In this document: piece by piece, positions 4,711-18,799 of the stretch
Numbering within the stretch: the stretch's first letter is position 1
How the letters are laid out: every line of letters begins with the position of its first letter
Virus record (IMG/VR): IMGVR_UViG_3300013286_000038
Location: 1-30,401 of that record
DNA length: 30,401 nt
Reading direction: 5' to 3' (one strand)
Origin: a virus
Translations under genes and position numbers: made by a program
The notes under the pieces: model-generated
The model's database searches: none
What the model was told of the DNA's origin: nothing
Seen by the model: only the letters and a program-made list of their open reading frames with translations

Positions 4711-5106
4711 ATGAAAATACGTGAATTAATGGAAGCCCGCGGTAACGGCCAAATGCCACAAGACTTAGAACATAAAAGTCAAGGTTCTATTCTTATGCGA
4801 GATGTTGGGGGTTACGACCGTACCTATCACCTAAATCGTATCATGATGGCTACAGCAATGGCCGACGGAGCTAACAAAAAGCCAGTAGACATGGACGGCG
4901 CCAGCTTTATAGAAAAGTTTAACATAGCATTTCCCTATACAGATCTAGAGCATCTCATGATGATGCAGGCAATGGCTACAATTCCCACAGACGGTAAAGA
5001 ACTCGCCAAGCGAAGTAAGAGTGTAGAACCATCCGACACCAACATCCAAAGTCCAATATCAAATTGGAACGCAAAAAAGACAACCAAAAGATCCAAAAAG
5101 GATTGA
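4711..5106 (+). CDS. Small virion/core protein candidate with capsid-targeting-like N terminus
   Basis: Function not recognised; 131 residues. The N terminus MKIRELMEARGN resembles the capsid-targeting peptide of T4 internal proteins (IPIII begins MKTYQEFIAE-A), with L-M-E before Ala as a possible site for the prohead protease, which in T4 cuts after (L/I)XE. The C-terminal 30 residues are strongly basic (ending KKTTKRSKKD), which would suit contact with packaged DNA. The middle is Met-rich (MMATAMADGA, HLMMMQAMATIP). The start is set by AAGAGG about 7 bases upstream, within the gp13 end, so it is translated with gp13 as a late gene. An internal head protein is inferred, not shown; it could equally be an assembly factor of the neck. 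Confidence 0.6.
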   Translation: MKIRELMEARGNGQMPQDLEHKSQGSILMRDVGGYDRTYHLNRIMMATAMADGANKKPVDMDGASFIEKFNIAFPYTDLEHLMMMQAMATIPTDGKELAKRSKSVEPSDTNIQSPISNWNAKKTTKRSKKD

Positions 5107-12262: not shown

Positions 12263-12640
12263 ATGCCAATATATACCAATATTCCTTCAAATAACAAAAA
12301 TGGTGATAGTGCAAACTCCACTAAAAATCTCATTGACAATTTTTATAAAACAAATATTCCCATCGATGCAGGAACTTATGATGCACTGAAAGGTTTTTTT
12401 GGTAGCAACGGTTTTAGTGATATTGCATCAGACACTATTGCCTATGCAATACTATATCAAGCCTATATTGATCAATATAATCCCATGCAGGTTATAGAAA
12501 ATATAAAAGGTCTCGACGGTGCCCAATTAAATGCACTGGTTACTGAGATTTTAAACTTCAACAGATTCAAAACCAGTTTCTTAGGAAGAAGCGCGGCCTA
12601 TGGAACTACTCCATCGGTTACTAGAGAGATTCTATCTTGA
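12263..12640 (+). CDS. Unknown small virion-operon protein
   Basis: Not recognised; 125 residues. Starts PIYTNIPSNNKNGDSANSTK, a polar probably disordered N terminus, then a mostly helical middle (NLIDNFYKTNIPIDAGTYDA; SDTIAYAILYQAYIDQYN) and a short tail. No membrane segment, cysteine or known motif. It lies between the tube-fold baseplate protein and gp4, starts one base after the former's stop and overlaps gp4 by four bases (TTGA), so it is made as part of the late structural operon. A role in baseplate or tail assembly is inferred only from position. Confidence 0.65.
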   Translation: MPIYTNIPSNNKNGDSANSTKNLIDNFYKTNIPIDAGTYDALKGFFGSNGFSDIASDTIAYAILYQAYIDQYNPMQVIENIKGLDGAQLNALVTEILNFNRFKTSFLGRSAAYGTTPSVTREILS

Positions 12641-13074
12641 GTTTAAAATTTGCCAAGGGTCAATACAATTTAAAGAACCCCGAAAAATACATAGGGTCAA
12701 CTGTTCCCATCTATCGTAGCAGTTGGGAAATAGCAGTCATGCGCATGTGTGATAATAATCCAGCTATTCAACAATGGGCCAGCGAACCTGTGAGAATTCC
12801 ATATAGAGATCCTCTTACCGGCAAGCAGACTGTATATGTTCCTGACTTTCTAGTGATGTTTGAAGATAAGAAAGAAAAGAAGCATATCGAGCTGTGGGAA
12901 ATAAAACCAGCGAATCAACAGATACTTGAAAAAGTTGGAAAAAATCCCTATAACCAAGCACAGTTTGTAAAGAATCAAGCCAAGTGGCAGGTAGCAACAC
13001 AATGGGCTAAATCCAGAGGCATGAAATTCAGAGTCTTAAACGAGAACGATATTTTCCATACTGGGAAGAAATAA
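12637..13074 (+). CDS. 4: Head completion protein (T4 gp4/gp50-like), nuclease fold
   Basis: Gp4 finishes packaged heads so that tails can attach. This 145-residue product lines up with T4 gp4 over most of its length: LKNPEKYIGS..PIYRSSWE (T4: KNISKYRGD..TYRSNWE), NNPAIQQWASEPVRIPY (T4: KNPEIIAWGSETAVIPY), then YVPDFLVMFEDK and HIELWEIKP, and the end KWQVATQWAKSRGMKFRVL (T4: KWKAAQSLAEKRGIKFRIL). The PDF...ELWEIKP residues fit a TnsA/PD-(D/E)XK-type nuclease core. The start is a TTG at 12637 that overlaps the preceding stop as TTGA; the family N terminus supports this over any later ATG. Confidence 0.9.
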   Translation: MSLKFAKGQYNLKNPEKYIGSTVPIYRSSWEIAVMRMCDNNPAIQQWASEPVRIPYRDPLTGKQTVYVPDFLVMFEDKKEKKHIELWEIKPANQQILEKVGKNPYNQAQFVKNQAKWQVATQWAKSRGMKFRVLNENDIFHTGKK

Positions 13075-13087
13075 AATAAGTAATGTT

Positions 13088-13570
13088 ATGACTAAGAAAC
13101 TTGAAGAACTTTTAAACATCAATTCTGCAGATGAAAAACCTGTGGAATTACCACCGGTAGCAAGCCCTCCTGCACATGTGAATCTACAAGCCACTCTCGA
13201 CGAATTTGATAAAATCAGCTCAGCACTTCCGCAGGTTAAAGGTCTGGGCGATATCAGCGATAGTGAGCTAGATGCACTGGCCAAGAAAGCAGAAGAAGCA
13301 TTTGATGACATATATGATTTAGGTATGAATGTAGAAGCACGATATAGTACCCGAATGTTTGAAGTTGCAGGTAACATGCTCAATGCCGCTATAACAGCCA
13401 AGTCAGCTAAGATTGATAAGAAGCTAAAAATGGTGGAATTACAGCTTAAAAAGCTGGCAATTGACAAGAAAGACAACCCTAATGACGGAAATAGCGTAGT
13501 TGCAGGTGAAGGTTATGTAATAGCAGATCGTAACAGTCTCATAGCAAAACTTAAAAACATGGATAAATAA
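13088..13570 (+). CDS. 16: Terminase small subunit (T4 gp16-like)
   Basis: Small terminase, which recognises or holds DNA at the start of packaging and regulates gp17. The 160-residue product has an acidic, Pro-rich N terminus (EELLNINSADEKPVELPPV), a central coiled-coil core (DIYDLGMNVEARYSTRMFEV followed by AGNMLNAAITAKSAKIDKKL) like the gp16 ring-forming domain ('arafEVaG..l'), and a polar C-terminal tail. Length compares with 164 in T4. No clear Shine-Dalgarno precedes the ATG; it follows gp4 after 13 bases. Unlike in T4, it is not next to gp17 but separated from it by two other genes. Identification rests on the core pattern and size. Confidence 0.75.
   Translation: MTKKLEELLNINSADEKPVELPPVASPPAHVNLQATLDEFDKISSALPQVKGLGDISDSELDALAKKAEEAFDDIYDLGMNVEARYSTRMFEVAGNMLNAAITAKSAKIDKKLKMVELQLKKLAIDKKDNPNDGNSVVAGEGYVIADRNSLIAKLKNMDK
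13563..13569 (+). promoter_or_regulatory. Late promoter for capsid-targeting protein
   Basis: ATAAATA overlaps the gp16 stop region, 17 bases before the ATG at 13587; the expected leader of about 12 bases contains GTAGGA as a weak ribosome site. Confidence 0.6.
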
Positions 13571-13586
13571 AGGGTAGGAATAAACT

Positions 13587-14174
13587 ATGAAAACATTTAA
13601 AGAATACCTTAGCGAAAGCAAAAAATTCTACGATTTTAAGATTAAGATCGCTGGAGAGTTTGCTGGCGAGGAAAAGCTAAAACAAATGCTGGAACGCTTT
13701 GTTGTATCAAGTTTCAAAAAATCAGGTACATCACCAATTCAGTCACTGCCATTAGATTTTCCAAAGATTCGCAATTGTCAAGTTACGGTATACGAAGTTG
13801 CACTCGAGTACCCAACTACATCTTATGAACTACACGAATATATTTCAGCTGGAATTGAAAAAGGACCCGACTATGTCGTAGTCCGCAAGCCGGGTGAACC
13901 AACTGAAGCTTACCAAGCACAACAAGACAAGCGCGAAGGCGCATTACTACAAGATCCAAATTACACAGAAGTGGAAAAAATAGACACCAAGTCGTATTAT
14001 GGGACCGAATACAACAGCAGTCTTGTAAAGACCTTAAACGATGACCTAAAGGCCATGCGTAAAGAAAGAGGAGAAGTTATTCCAAGTTCCGCTGACGGAA
14101 AAACAACTAACGAAGTTCCTCAAAATAACACAAGTCCAATTCAAGAAACGGACTATGATCCAAGGAAGAAATAA
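13587..14174 (+). CDS. Probable prohead internal protein with capsid-targeting sequence
   Basis: A 195-residue protein of unknown fold whose N terminus MKTFKEYLSES is very close to the capsid-targeting sequence of T4 IPI/IPII/IPIII (MKTYQEFIAEA). Prohead protease in T4 cuts after (L/I)XE; LSE fits and cleavage would fall after residue 10. The rest begins with an alpha/beta-looking stretch (KFYDFKIKIAGEFAGEEKLK; CQVTVYEVALEYPTT) that looks like a ferredoxin-like strand pattern, then a long polar tail ending NTSPIQETDYDPRKK. It sits between the two terminase genes with its own late promoter, fitting a head component. What it does in the head is unknown. Confidence 0.65.
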   Translation: MKTFKEYLSESKKFYDFKIKIAGEFAGEEKLKQMLERFVVSSFKKSGTSPIQSLPLDFPKIRNCQVTVYEVALEYPTTSYELHEYISAGIEKGPDYVVVRKPGEPTEAYQAQQDKREGALLQDPNYTEVEKIDTKSYYGTEYNSSLVKTLNDDLKAMRKERGEVIPSSADGKTTNEVPQNNTSPIQETDYDPRKK

Positions 14175-14175
14175 C

Positions 14176-14958
14176 ATGCAAATGATCGACGTAATAAAGA
14201 AATTAGCCGAATTAGATGAGGCTAATGTACCAAAGCCAATGGTTCAAATGGCCAATGATCCAACCGTTGCGGTCATTACAGAATCTATCACAGGTGAAGC
14301 TGGAATGCCAATGGCATCACCAACAGCATCTCCTTCTGTTCCTGCAAGTTTCAGTATCAATGCTTCAGCCGCTAACGGAAACGAAGTCAGCACAATGTTG
14401 CGTGATATCCTAAACCTAGCAGGTATGAAAGAAGTTGGCCAAGCAGATATTAATCCTAAAGATGCTGGTGCTACACTGACTGCTGAACCAAGTCAAGGCG
14501 CTGACGGCGATATGAGATCTGCTATCGATGCCATTGCTGGCATGGACGACGAAAGCATGGGCATGATGGACGACGAAAGCATGGGCATGGACATGGGCGA
14601 TACTGGTGCAGAACTAGGCACAGCAGGTCCAGGCGGCACACAAGACGTTGGCCAAATGGCCGATGAAGTAGCTGACATGACTGACCAAATATCAGGCACG
14701 AGTAAAGATGAACTGGGCCTAGAAAGCCTACGTCAATTTGACAACAGCCCACAAGAACAAACTAGAGATTATAATCCAAACGATTTTGCAAATATCATCA
14801 ACAAAGTACGTAAATTTGATTACACATCTACTCCAGCTAATAACAATTTACCAGAAAGCCTGGAACAACAATATGTTCCAGCAGAACAAGAAGATAATTT
14901 ATTAGACATGACACAGAAACTATTCCAAGAATATCAAGGTTTTATCAAGAATATCTAA
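14176..14958 (+). CDS. Acidic Met/Gly-rich protein, head-core/scaffold-like candidate
   Basis: Not recognised; 260 residues, very acidic with a central Met-Asp-Gly rich region (GMDDESMGMMDDESMGMDMG) produced by a perfect 24-base tandem repeat, and long Ala/Ser/Pro stretches. Several (L/I)XE sites (LAE, LDE near the N terminus; ITE) could be prohead-protease sites. The last ~60 residues look structured (DFANIINKVRKFDY; DNLLDMTQKLFQEYQGFIKN). ATG at 14176 is chosen because AAGGAAGAAA ends 5 bases before it and it lies just past the previous stop. Its position after a capsid-targeting protein and before gp17 and its composition suggest a core or scaffold-like role, but this is inference. A strong terminator follows. 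Confidence 0.6.
   Translation: MQMIDVIKKLAELDEANVPKPMVQMANDPTVAVITESITGEAGMPMASPTASPSVPASFSINASAANGNEVSTMLRDILNLAGMKEVGQADINPKDAGATLTAEPSQGADGDMRSAIDAIAGMDDESMGMMDDESMGMDMGDTGAELGTAGPGGTQDVGQMADEVADMTDQISGTSKDELGLESLRQFDNSPQEQTRDYNPNDFANIINKVRKFDYTSTPANNNLPESLEQQYVPAEQEDNLLDMTQKLFQEYQGFIKNI
14542..14589 (+). repeat. Perfect 24-bp tandem repeat (two copies)
   Basis: Two adjacent identical 24-base units (14542-14565, 14566-14589), each encoding MDDESMGM, in frame within the acidic protein gene. Confidence 0.9.
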
Positions 14959-15014: not shown

Positions 15015-16607
15015 ATGAGTTTATCCAATAGCAACAACCTAATCAAAACAGCAAATAAGACTTTGAAATATTCAGAGCAGGATATTGTTGATTTACGGTT
15101 GTGTTCAGACCTTGATACCGGTCATAAATATTTTCTTAAAAAATTCTTCTACATACAGCATCCAACTCGCGGACAAATACAGTACCAAGCATACGAGTAT
15201 CAGGATCGTCTTGTAGATAGTTTACACGAATACAGATTTAACGTAAACATGTTACCGCGACAAAGTGGTAAAACAACCACAGCAGTTGGTTATCTGCTTT
15301 GGTATGCTATGTTTAATCCAAACGTTACTATTCTAATTGCCGCGCACAAATATACAGGCGCACAGGAAATTATGCAACGCCTACGTTATGCATATGAAAC
15401 TTGCCCTAATCATATTCGTTGTGGAGTTAAGAGCTACAATAAACAGTCAATTGAGTTTGATAATGATTCACGTATTGTAGCGCAGACAACGACAGAAAAC
15501 ACAGGTCGTGGCATGTCTATATCACTACTCTACTGTGACGAGTTCGCTTTCGTTCCTGACAACATTGGCAAGGAATTTTGGACTTCGATATCACCTACAC
15601 TGGCTACTGGTGGTAAGGCCATTATTACATCAACTCCTAACAGTGACGAAGATCAATTTGCTGAAATATGGTTTGGTGCTATTAAAACTGAAGACGAGTT
15701 TGGAAATCAGAAAGAGAATAATCTAGGTATCAACGGATTCCACGCATACACGAGTCATTGGTCAGATCATCCAGATCGAGATGACGCTTGGGCGGCTGTG
15801 GAAAAAGGCCGCATCGGTGAAGAACGTTTCCGTCGTGAGTATGGTTGCGAATTCTTAGTTTATGATGAAACGCTTATCAACAGTATTCATCTGGCGTCTA
15901 TGACAGGAAATGAACCAACTACAAAAATGGGGCAGGCACGATGGTATAAAAAGATTGACCCTAAATCTACCTACATCCTCAGTTTAGATCCTGCGCTGGG
16001 TACAGGCGGTAACTATGCGGCCATCGAAGTTACAGAATTACCTAGCCTGATACAGGTAGGAGAATGGCATCATAATCTTACTCCGGTACAGAGTCAAGTT
16101 AAAATACTACGGGACATGTGTAGATACATTGATGATGCCTGCATAGAAAAAGGTGTGCAAAGTACCATTTATTATTCAGTAGAAAATAATACACTAGGCG
16201 AGGGCGCTCTGGTTGCTATTAACGAGCTAGGCGAAGAAACATTTCCGGGCATGTTCATGAGCGAGCCTATTAAAAAGGGCAATACTCGAAGATATCGCAA
16301 GGGCTACAACACCACAGAAAAAGCTAAAATCGCAACATGCGCCAAGTTGAAACACCTAATTGAAACCAAAAAGATGACTATAAACTCACAGGCATTTATC
16401 AGTCAACTTAAAACATACGTAGCCACAGGCACCAGTTTTGCGGGTAAAAATGAAGAATCAGACGACCTAGTGGCATCTATGTTGGTAAATCTACGCATGA
16501 TCATGCAGTTACAGGACTGGGATCCTGCGGTCTACGATACCATGCACGACTATGTAAACAACGAAATGGAGCTTCCGTTGCCGATATACGTAAGTACCAG
16601 TTTTTAA
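15015..16607 (+). CDS. 17: Terminase large subunit (T4 gp17-like)
   Basis: Packaging motor: ATPase plus headful nuclease acting at the portal. Walker A-type motif MLPRQSGKTTT at residues 79-89, Walker B LLYCDEFAF (near 172-180, with DE), the coupling region ITSTPN shortly after, and the RNase H-like nuclease domain starting ILSLDPALGTGGNYA (near 320) with a final acidic SDDLVASML near 480. Length 530 compared with 610 in T4. The ATG at 15015 directly follows the late element and terminator, with no Shine-Dalgarno. The preceding terminator isolates it from upstream transcripts, so it is likely expressed only from its own late promoter. Motif order and spacing leave little doubt. Confidence 0.95.
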   Translation: MSLSNSNNLIKTANKTLKYSEQDIVDLRLCSDLDTGHKYFLKKFFYIQHPTRGQIQYQAYEYQDRLVDSLHEYRFNVNMLPRQSGKTTTAVGYLLWYAMFNPNVTILIAAHKYTGAQEIMQRLRYAYETCPNHIRCGVKSYNKQSIEFDNDSRIVAQTTTENTGRGMSISLLYCDEFAFVPDNIGKEFWTSISPTLATGGKAIITSTPNSDEDQFAEIWFGAIKTEDEFGNQKENNLGINGFHAYTSHWSDHPDRDDAWAAVEKGRIGEERFRREYGCEFLVYDETLINSIHLASMTGNEPTTKMGQARWYKKIDPKSTYILSLDPALGTGGNYAAIEVTELPSLIQVGEWHHNLTPVQSQVKILRDMCRYIDDACIEKGVQSTIYYSVENNTLGEGALVAINELGEETFPGMFMSEPIKKGNTRRYRKGYNTTEKAKIATCAKLKHLIETKKMTINSQAFISQLKTYVATGTSFAGKNEESDDLVASMLVNLRMIMQLQDWDPAVYDTMHDYVNNEMELPLPIYVSTSF

Positions 16608-16618: not shown

Positions 16619-18799
16619 ATGAATGCTATAGAACTAATTTCACAGGATTTATTTGACAAAGTACGCAGTCGATTTTCTAACCTACAAATGGGCGATGATA
16701 GCGGCGCAGTGACAGTCGATCCTACAGAAGCAAGATTTTTTGACTTTGACTTTGTTGTAGAAGGAAATAACCTAGGACGTATAAGCGTTAGTATCAACGA
16801 CTTAGGTAATTTAAAATTATTCTACAGCCAAGGAATCGTAGAAGAACGCGATCCTGTTACCCAACAATTTTGGTTTGATTTCTTAAAAGAAATGAGACAA
16901 TTCGCAATGCGTAGACTACTACGTTTTGACCCAAGAGACATCACAAAGGGCAATTTAGAAAAAAACGATTTTCAATATCTTGCTCAAAACGGACCCAAGG
17001 AAGACAACATGACAGAATCAACAATGTACGGTAGCTCAAAGAGCAGTTATCGCCCACTAGACAAGACCTTACTAATTATTCGCCATAATAACAAGGTCGG
17101 CGAAGACCGTGGCGCTCGTAGCCGTAGTAACAACATTCAATCGATCTTCATTCAAAACGAAGCAGGCGAACGGTTCAAGTACCCTATGATCCATATGGCA
17201 GGCGCAAAAGCCATGCAACGTCACGTATCAAACGGTGGAGCCACATATGATGAAGCTGGTCAATCAATTATCAAAATGAGCGAACAGATTCGTGCTTTGA
17301 GTACATTCAAGCGCCAAGTCGGCCACTCCGAACAACTTACGCAAGAAGCATTAGGAATCGTTGACCGCGCCGGTTCAAAATTATCTGAATTAAGATCAAC
17401 TATCGAAAACTTATCCAAGCAGACTTACTATGCAGAGTGGAGAGAAAGTCTAGCAACACTAGATATTGCGGAACAAACAGAATTAGATTCAACAACATTT
17501 GAAGATTATAAATCTAAATTTACAATAAGCAGTTTTAAAGAAGACCTAACACAATACTTTCCGTTATTGTACAGTATCATGCAGGAAGCAGGCGATCTAG
17601 ACTTGGCAGAATATGTAGGTGAAGATAAAGAAGAAACATGTGACGACTGCGGCGAACCAGTCGACGATTGTGACTGCGATGATCACGATCATCCTAAAGA
17701 AGGACTTGAAGCATTTGAAGACTGGGCAAATGAAATTGTAGAAGGCCCAAACAAGAGCGACATTCCTGCGTCCCAACGCAAAGCCAAGGGCGGCGATTGG
17801 AAAGTATCCACAAAAGATTTAGAAGATGAAAAAGAAAAGAGCCCCACAGGTTCAGCAGGTCTTGCTAAACGCAAGAAAGAGTTAGGCATGAACGAAGGTG
17901 CATATCAAGATTTGGGCCCGAATGGTAGAGAAATCTATACCAAGGTACAAGCACTACGTGACAAGATCAGAAACGGTGAAGTCAAGCCAGACGAAAAAAT
18001 GCAACAAGATTTTGATAATCTATTAGTTGGGCACGGCATGGATCCGGAGTTTGCAGAAACAGAGTGGATGCGTATAACTGGTCAGTCGTCAAAGCCAACT
18101 ATCGATCCTAGCCTAAGAAAAGAAGCTCCTCCAATGACTGCTCCTAAAGACAGTGATGACGAGGATGATGATGCAAGTTTCTTGCAAAAGTTACGTATGC
18201 AAGCCAAAGGCGGTTCGATTAAACCAGGTGTTGACACGGGCGGTATGGATGAAGAAAATGAAATGCCAAGCGGCCAAAGTAATGCTTTGCCGATCAAAGA
18301 AATTGCTGAAAAAGTATTAAGTCACATTGATCGCGAGACCGGTGGATGCCCACTAGGTGCTACAGCAGTTGGTATCCAAGTTGCCAAAGAACACGGCGAT
18401 GCGGCAGGTGCTCTTGCTGAGAAATTAGTACATCACCTACAAGCCAAGATCGAAGCCAAGAAGCAAATGGAAACCATGCGCAGATTAGCAGGCCTTCCTC
18501 CGTTAATCGAAGCTGACAAGAAAACAATGAGTAAAGCCGCCAAAGGCATGATGAAGTACGGCAAGGATGGCATGAAAGCTCTAGCCAAAGCTGGAAAAGA
18601 AGGCAAGAACTTGGACAAGGTTCGTGACAAGTATAACAAGTACGATGAATCAACCGGAAAGACCATGAGTCGTGCGGCCAAGGGCAATGAGAAGTACGGC
18701 AAGGACGGAATGAAAGAGTTAGCCAAAGCTGGTCGTGAAGGCGCAAGCGAAAAGAAGTTAGATACTATTCGCAAAAAGCACGACAACTACAAAGACTAA
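16619..18799 (+). CDS. Large late protein of unknown function with Lys-rich C-terminal repeats
   Basis: Function not recognised; 726 residues. Part 1 (1-about 335) looks globular: FFDFDFVVEGNNLGRISVSI, FWFDFLKEMRQFAMRRLLRF, LIIRHNNKVGEDRGARSRSN, FKYPMIHMAGAKAMQRHVSN. Then a Cys/His/Asp cluster, CDDCGEPVDDCDCDDHDH from residue 341, that could bind metal. Part 2 is polar, linker-like, with acidic runs. A short Cys-containing segment (ETGGCPLGATAV) follows near 565. The end is two 46-residue Lys-rich repeats. The next unit is the early gp32 operon, and a terminator follows. It shares the leaderless late promoter type with gp17. A virion or packaging-associated role is inferred from timing and position; the basic tail suggests nucleic-acid contact. 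Confidence 0.75.
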   Translation: MNAIELISQDLFDKVRSRFSNLQMGDDSGAVTVDPTEARFFDFDFVVEGNNLGRISVSINDLGNLKLFYSQGIVEERDPVTQQFWFDFLKEMRQFAMRRLLRFDPRDITKGNLEKNDFQYLAQNGPKEDNMTESTMYGSSKSSYRPLDKTLLIIRHNNKVGEDRGARSRSNNIQSIFIQNEAGERFKYPMIHMAGAKAMQRHVSNGGATYDEAGQSIIKMSEQIRALSTFKRQVGHSEQLTQEALGIVDRAGSKLSELRSTIENLSKQTYYAEWRESLATLDIAEQTELDSTTFEDYKSKFTISSFKEDLTQYFPLLYSIMQEAGDLDLAEYVGEDKEETCDDCGEPVDDCDCDDHDHPKEGLEAFEDWANEIVEGPNKSDIPASQRKAKGGDWKVSTKDLEDEKEKSPTGSAGLAKRKKELGMNEGAYQDLGPNGREIYTKVQALRDKIRNGEVKPDEKMQQDFDNLLVGHGMDPEFAETEWMRITGQSSKPTIDPSLRKEAPPMTAPKDSDDEDDDASFLQKLRMQAKGGSIKPGVDTGGMDEENEMPSGQSNALPIKEIAEKVLSHIDRETGGCPLGATAVGIQVAKEHGDAAGALAEKLVHHLQAKIEAKKQMETMRRLAGLPPLIEADKKTMSKAAKGMMKYGKDGMKALAKAGKEGKNLDKVRDKYNKYDESTGKTMSRAAKGNEKYGKDGMKELAKAGREGASEKKLDTIRKKHDNYKD
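18521..18796 (+). repeat. Two 46-residue Lys/Ala-rich C-terminal repeats
   Basis: Period 138 bases: copies start at 18521 and 18659. Shared pattern: KTMS(K/R)AAKG, KYGKDGMK, LAKAG(K/R)EG, then LD, R, K, Y. Bases are well conserved too (for example AAGTACGGCAAGGA in both). Confidence 0.85.

Follow-up and report, generated by a model that had tools for sequence, protein, structure and literature searches.

What does a capsid-targeting signal do on a protein encoded among the packaging genes of a giant phage, and is its carrier an effector destined for the host or a part of the particle? The DNA in which the question arose (the window, a single contig of 30,401 nucleotides) is a virus record and a fragment, in which an open reading frame (ORF) of 195 residues begins with a peptide resembling the capsid-targeting sequence (CTS) of bacteriophage T4. 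In T4, the CTS has been recognised chiefly on internal proteins that are small, basic and quick to change, and it has served to carry foreign proteins into the head. The answer that we consider probable is that the product of the ORF is a core component of the jumbo-myophage virion, most likely belonging to the head; a T4-type CTS leader would carry it into the prohead, and it is probably cut after Glu10. Genes for the protease, the major capsid protein (MCP) and the scaffold were read in a 200-kb relative, G001, whose copy of the protein is 94% identical to that of the window.

The locus and its leader

As first annotated, the ORF lies between the terminase genes; the order is head closure, small-terminase-like, the 195-residue ORF, one extra ORF and large terminase (Table 1). 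Beyond the large terminase, the ORF at 16619-18799, in the place of PA5oct gp278, ends in two tandem basic units (window 18450-18796, + strand) of the form KTMS[KR]AAKGxxKYGKDGMKxLAKAG, which the PA5oct protein does not have.

Table 1 Features of the locus, in window coordinates
Feature	Positions	Strand	Basis or remark
ORF with CTS-like leader MKIRELMEA (L-M-E|A), 131 aa	4711-5106	+	Second such ORF in the window; adjoins neck gene
TnsA-like head-closure / head-completion protein (T4 gp4-like)	12637-13074	+	phrog_218, 4.5e-40
Small-terminase-like protein	13088-13570	+	phrog_16202, 4e-18; phrog_445, 3e-4
AGGA, Shine-Dalgarno-like	13576-13579	+	Sequence; 7 nt 5' of the ATG of ORF 13587-14174
CDS, 195 aa, phrog_14802-family jumbo-phage virion protein with CTS-like leader	13587-14174	+	ATG; homology
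Leader MKTFKEYLSES	13587-13619	+	Targeting F4/Y7 and processing L8/E10, by analogy with T4 IPIII
Predicted prohead-protease site L8-S9-E10|S11	13608-13619	+	Inferred; lineage MCP has L-x-E|S
Predicted ferredoxin-like domain (beta-alpha-beta-beta-alpha-beta), residues 15-100	13629-13886	+	AlphaFold2, Foldseek
Predicted C-terminal helix, residues 142-160, after a low-confidence stretch	14010-14066	+	AlphaFold2
ORF in the place of PA5oct gp281 (virion-detected)	14176-14958	+	Start likely 14176, not 14155
Large terminase	15015-16607	+	Neighbour gene

The product begins MKTFKEYLSESKKFYDFKIKIAG, with MKTFKEYLSES at its front. Against the leader of T4 IPII and IPIII (MKTYQEFIAEA) this peptide has a BLOSUM62 score of 36, the T4 self-score being 55, and the only N-terminus reaching 36 among the 2,970 genes called in six related jumbo phages is that of the protein's own homologue; the best of all others is 26. 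In T4 itself just IPII, IPIII and gene 61.1 reach 36. The T4 IPI leader, MKTFKEFTST, scores 29 and shares MKTFKE exactly with the window protein, so that the leader is as like IPI as it is like IPIII. One hypothesis is that these resemblances are fortuitous and that the peptide is an N-terminal amphipathic helix, rich in lysine, that plays no part in sorting, for the motif is short, was spotted by eye, and belongs to a kind of helix that is generally common. However, a single match at 36 in so large a background, with the next best at 26, places the likeness above chance, and the mapped positions Leu8 and Glu10 are invariant in the protein's relatives. A relaxed form of the CTS motif is moreover enriched at N-termini of G001 (4 of 190 genes against 0.09 expected), although this is not independent proof because the motif was defined after viewing that genome. 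We therefore hold a fortuitous resemblance to be highly unlikely; reading the peptide as a T4-like targeting sequence with an L-x-E site, as the first-pass annotation had done, stands up to this comparison and is well supported by the sequence.

Motif searches delimit how widely such leaders occur. The search proposed with the annotation, run as M-K-x3-[ED]-[FYL]-[LIVY]-x-[ED], found the 195-residue protein and no second gene in the window or the 200-kb relative. The relaxed motif recovers three N-termini in T4, two known internal proteins and gene 61.1, and has no match in Vibrio 2.275.O, XaC1, CBB or RaK2, so an MK-type leader is not common to all RaK2-like phages. Neither "MK" (p 0.74) nor a broad CTS pattern (p 0.36) was enriched with respect to mass-spectrometry status in PA5oct; for MK[IL]xE[LIV] the split was 7/89 against 6/381 (p 0.0045), a modest effect for a pattern picked post hoc in a proteome that has non-virion enzymes. 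As a separate observation, T4 gene 61.1 (NC_000866.4 18966-19130; 54 residues, hypothetical) starts MKTFKEFIKED and scores as high against the IPIII leader as the window protein does, and it is possible from this likeness that it encodes a CTS protein of T4 so far unrecognised.

Conservation, cleavage machinery and distant relatives

In T4 IPIII, mutagenesis showed that targeting depends mainly on residues 4 and 7, and processing on residues 8 and 10 (PMC9026906). Are these positions constrained in the relatives of the window protein? A search of IMG/VR baited with the neighbouring head-closure gene retrieved 80 loci; 68 of these extend 1,200 nt or more downstream, and the family was present in all 68, always in the same order among head and packaging genes. 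Leu8 and Glu10 are unchanged in all 57 distinct aquatic relatives, which belong to the window's clade and are mutually related, so that their agreement amounts to fewer than 57 independent events. Phe4 is kept in 55, Tyr7 in 49 (His or Leu in the remainder) and Ser11 in 52, while positions 3 and 9 vary freely and the stretch that links the leader to the domain is longer in some sequences than in others; positions 4, 7, 8 and 10 together rank third by conservation among 210 four-position subsets. Leu8 is encoded by five kinds of codon and Glu10 by two, and since codons vary where residues do not, an RNA-level cause of the conservation was ruled out.

The machinery for cutting such a leader is encoded in the same lineage. 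A gp21-type prohead protease (PF03420) was found in G001 (E=1e-26), in T4 and in eight of eight jumbo isolates (PA5oct, Vibrio 2.275.O, XaC1, Atu_ph07, RaK2, CBB, 121Q and Phosso). At the position aligned with FLTE65|A of the T4 MCP, whose Glu65 is the established T4 cleavage position, the G001 MCP reads LIE|S and that of PA5oct LVE|N, with LME|S, LNE|S, LRE|S and LFE|S in others, such that every jumbo-phage lineage aligned carries L-x-E|S or L-x-E|N there. The leader's LSE|S thus has the lineage's own cut-site form, and would be cut between 13616 and 13617. In addition, the gp22-type scaffold begins MDAFKxLVE[SG] in all 60 lineage loci read (MDAFKQLVES in G001) and has F-K...L-x-E-S in common with the leader, a likeness that would fit both proteins joining the same core contact.

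The resemblance to the propeptides of IPI, IPII and IPIII accordingly includes the extreme N-terminal position, the length of 10-11 residues, aromatic or hydrophobic residues at 4 and 7, a hydrophobic residue at 8, Glu10 with a small P1' residue, and the gp21-type protease of the lineage. The T4 signal differs in being carried by small, basic, variable proteins, whereas here it stands on a conserved, acidic, ferredoxin-like virion protein of which some distant jumbo-phage relatives keep the targeting positions without the processing residue. In each distant lineage compared, positions 4, 7 and 8 are aromatic or aliphatic. Outside the window's clade, Glu10 is kept by Atu_ph07, Vibrio, CBB and 121Q alone; RaK2 and XbC2 have Asp at position 10, XaC1 and PA5oct have Ala, and Munch and Phosso have Ser. 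For Atu_ph07, RaK2 and Phosso these leaders are read from starts that homology suggests and that are not the annotated ones. Public annotations use other start codons for Atu_ph07 (L033 6001-6756), RaK2 (L034 9001-9549) and phAPEC6 gp270c, and those of Atu_ph07 and, as inferred from its mass, phAPEC6 gp270c drop the conserved leader.

This distribution bears on an alternative hypothesis, in which the leader is a helix that docks a lasting structural component of the particle (in the head interior, portal vertex or neck, for instance), is never cut, and keeps L-x-E for contact. The retention of hydrophobic or aromatic residues at 4, 7 and 8 in all lineages, with Glu10 lost in several, is what such a helix would produce, and Asp at position 10 of T4 IPIII blocks processing and spares targeting (PMC9026906), the residue found naturally in RaK2 and XbC2. 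However, Glu10 is invariant in the 57 sequences of the window's clade and is followed there by a small residue (Ser, Gly or Asn), as at the MCP site, and for the window protein we judge a permanently uncut helix to be unlikely. Since Glu10 is missing from six of the phages compared, cleavage is not universal to the function of the protein; nor has protease specificity obviously changed in RaK2, whose MCP still reads LFE|S. The simplest reading of these sequences is that docking would be general and cleavage optional across lineages.

A conserved virion protein and probably not an injected effector

The annotation had called the product an unknown protein, a label that gives way to membership of a conserved virion-protein family (phrog_14802) with a fixed place among head and packaging genes. 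A tblastn search with the window protein found PA5oct gp282 (E=2e-8), and through the Vibrio homologue it extended to the whole RaK2-like group, Atu_ph07 and Phosso. Although the window protein alone falls below threshold against phrog_14802, annotated "virion structural protein", 43 of 52 members of its clade match it (best 1e-11), as do PA5oct gp282 (7e-8) and CBB_210, the latter a more distant homologue of the window protein than gp282. The body is thus homologous to the phrog_14802 proteins (CBB_210, GAP32_204, RaK2 ORF047 and 121Q_557) and to gp282, across RaK2-like, PA5oct-like and aquatic jumbo phages. At the corresponding loci, the constant order within the head and packaging genes is head closure, small-terminase-like, homologue and then further structural genes, with the large terminase downstream, as in the window, in PA5oct-like and Agrobacterium/Sinorhizobium phages. 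The group differs in its leader, which reads MNKLQKILTE in RaK2-like phages and often has no Glu10.

Presence in the virion, expected of a T4-type CTS protein, is established for homologues by published mass spectrometry. In Pectobacterium phage CBB, CBB_210 was detected by 13 unique peptides with 60.5% coverage (PMC5259590), and phAPEC6 gp270c by 4 peptides with 41.1% coverage (PMC7247149). The latter is probably a homologue, as its gene occupies the corresponding place in the gene order and its mass, 16.20 kDa, equals that of the 121Q homologue read from Met38. PA5oct gp282 is likewise flagged as virion-detected by ESI-MS/MS, but single detections in this phage are weak because the set includes non-virion enzymes (RNR, ligase).

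An AlphaFold2 model from 52 sequences has a mean pLDDT of 67 and a pTM of only 0.46, and shows residues 4-10 as a helix separate from the domain. Foldseek returned only generic ferredoxin-like matches (ribosomal S6, PII) and phage homologues; a Pfam search of the protein gave no match, and no sequence relative was found among solved structures. The body is acidic (pI 5.4, charge -3.4), as is the family (pI 4.4-5.6).

Could the protein nevertheless be an injected effector of the T4 IPI kind, packed by its leader, entering the host along with the DNA and targeting one of its defence enzymes, as the first-pass annotation proposed? The leader resembles those of IPI, IPII and IPIII, IPI* of T4 inhibits a restriction enzyme after injection (PMC3012670), and there is a weak match to phrog_2667, "internal head protein", confined to residues 1-34. 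However, the likeness to the T4 effectors ends with the leader. T4 internal proteins have diverse bodies in which the CTS alone is conserved (PMC3012670), and they are basic (pI 9.0-9.7); here the body is non-homologous, of opposite charge and opposite in its pattern of conservation, shared by RaK2-like and PA5oct-like phages and found in every one of the 68 loci amid head genes. Such constancy of sequence, presence and position contrasts with the diverse bodies of T4 effectors; the effector proposal is unsupported and we regard it as very unlikely.

A proposed head-sorting leader and its possible reach

The evidence is most consistent with a core virion protein delivered to the prohead by its leader. 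In the proposed mechanism, the first 11 residues would act as a T4-type capsid-targeting leader in the form of a short amphipathic helix (F4, Y7, L8), its sequence and conservation being directly observed. Through this helix the protein would dock on the core formed by the gp22-type scaffold, which has a similar N-terminus, and would be enclosed as the shell assembles. The gp21-type prohead protease, observed with its matching MCP site in the close relative G001, would then cut after Glu10 and free the body, which would remain in the mature particle, inside the head. The acidic body, comprising the ferredoxin-like domain, a low-confidence linker and the C-terminal helix, would serve a conserved structural or assembly role and not an adaptable anti-defence one.

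Similar leaders stand on other proteins. The second window ORF with such a leader (4711-5106) begins MKIRELMEARGNG; its relatives on 68 contigs mostly read M[KR][AI]xE[FIL][IVM]xE[AGST], and several read MRAREFIAEA or MRAREFISEA, recalling EFIAEA of the T4 CTS. In G001, a cluster at 164972-170993 (- strand) has the leaders MRILEVITED, MKIAELIAED, MKLLELF and MKLYEFF; some of its proteins are K-rich, and one, of 1,036 residues, appears nucleotidyltransferase-like by eye. As candidates for packaged or injected proteins, the members of this cluster rank above the 195-residue ORF.

We tentatively hypothesize, giving it somewhat less than an even chance, that in a large clade of aquatic jumbo phages the T4-type leader serves generally to sort virion proteins that are not otherwise related to one another, among them a core head protein, with the docking residues (4, 7 and 8) kept everywhere and the processing residue (10) lost in some lineages, such that the same protein may be cleaved cargo or a permanently anchored part. 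The T4 result that Asp10 permits targeting without processing then becomes a prediction for the natural phages RaK2 and XbC2. If a CTS is indeed carried by a core virion protein of giant phages, the tag would be a general head-sorting signal, and would provide a sequence rule to predict which unknown virion proteins of jumbo phages lie inside the head.
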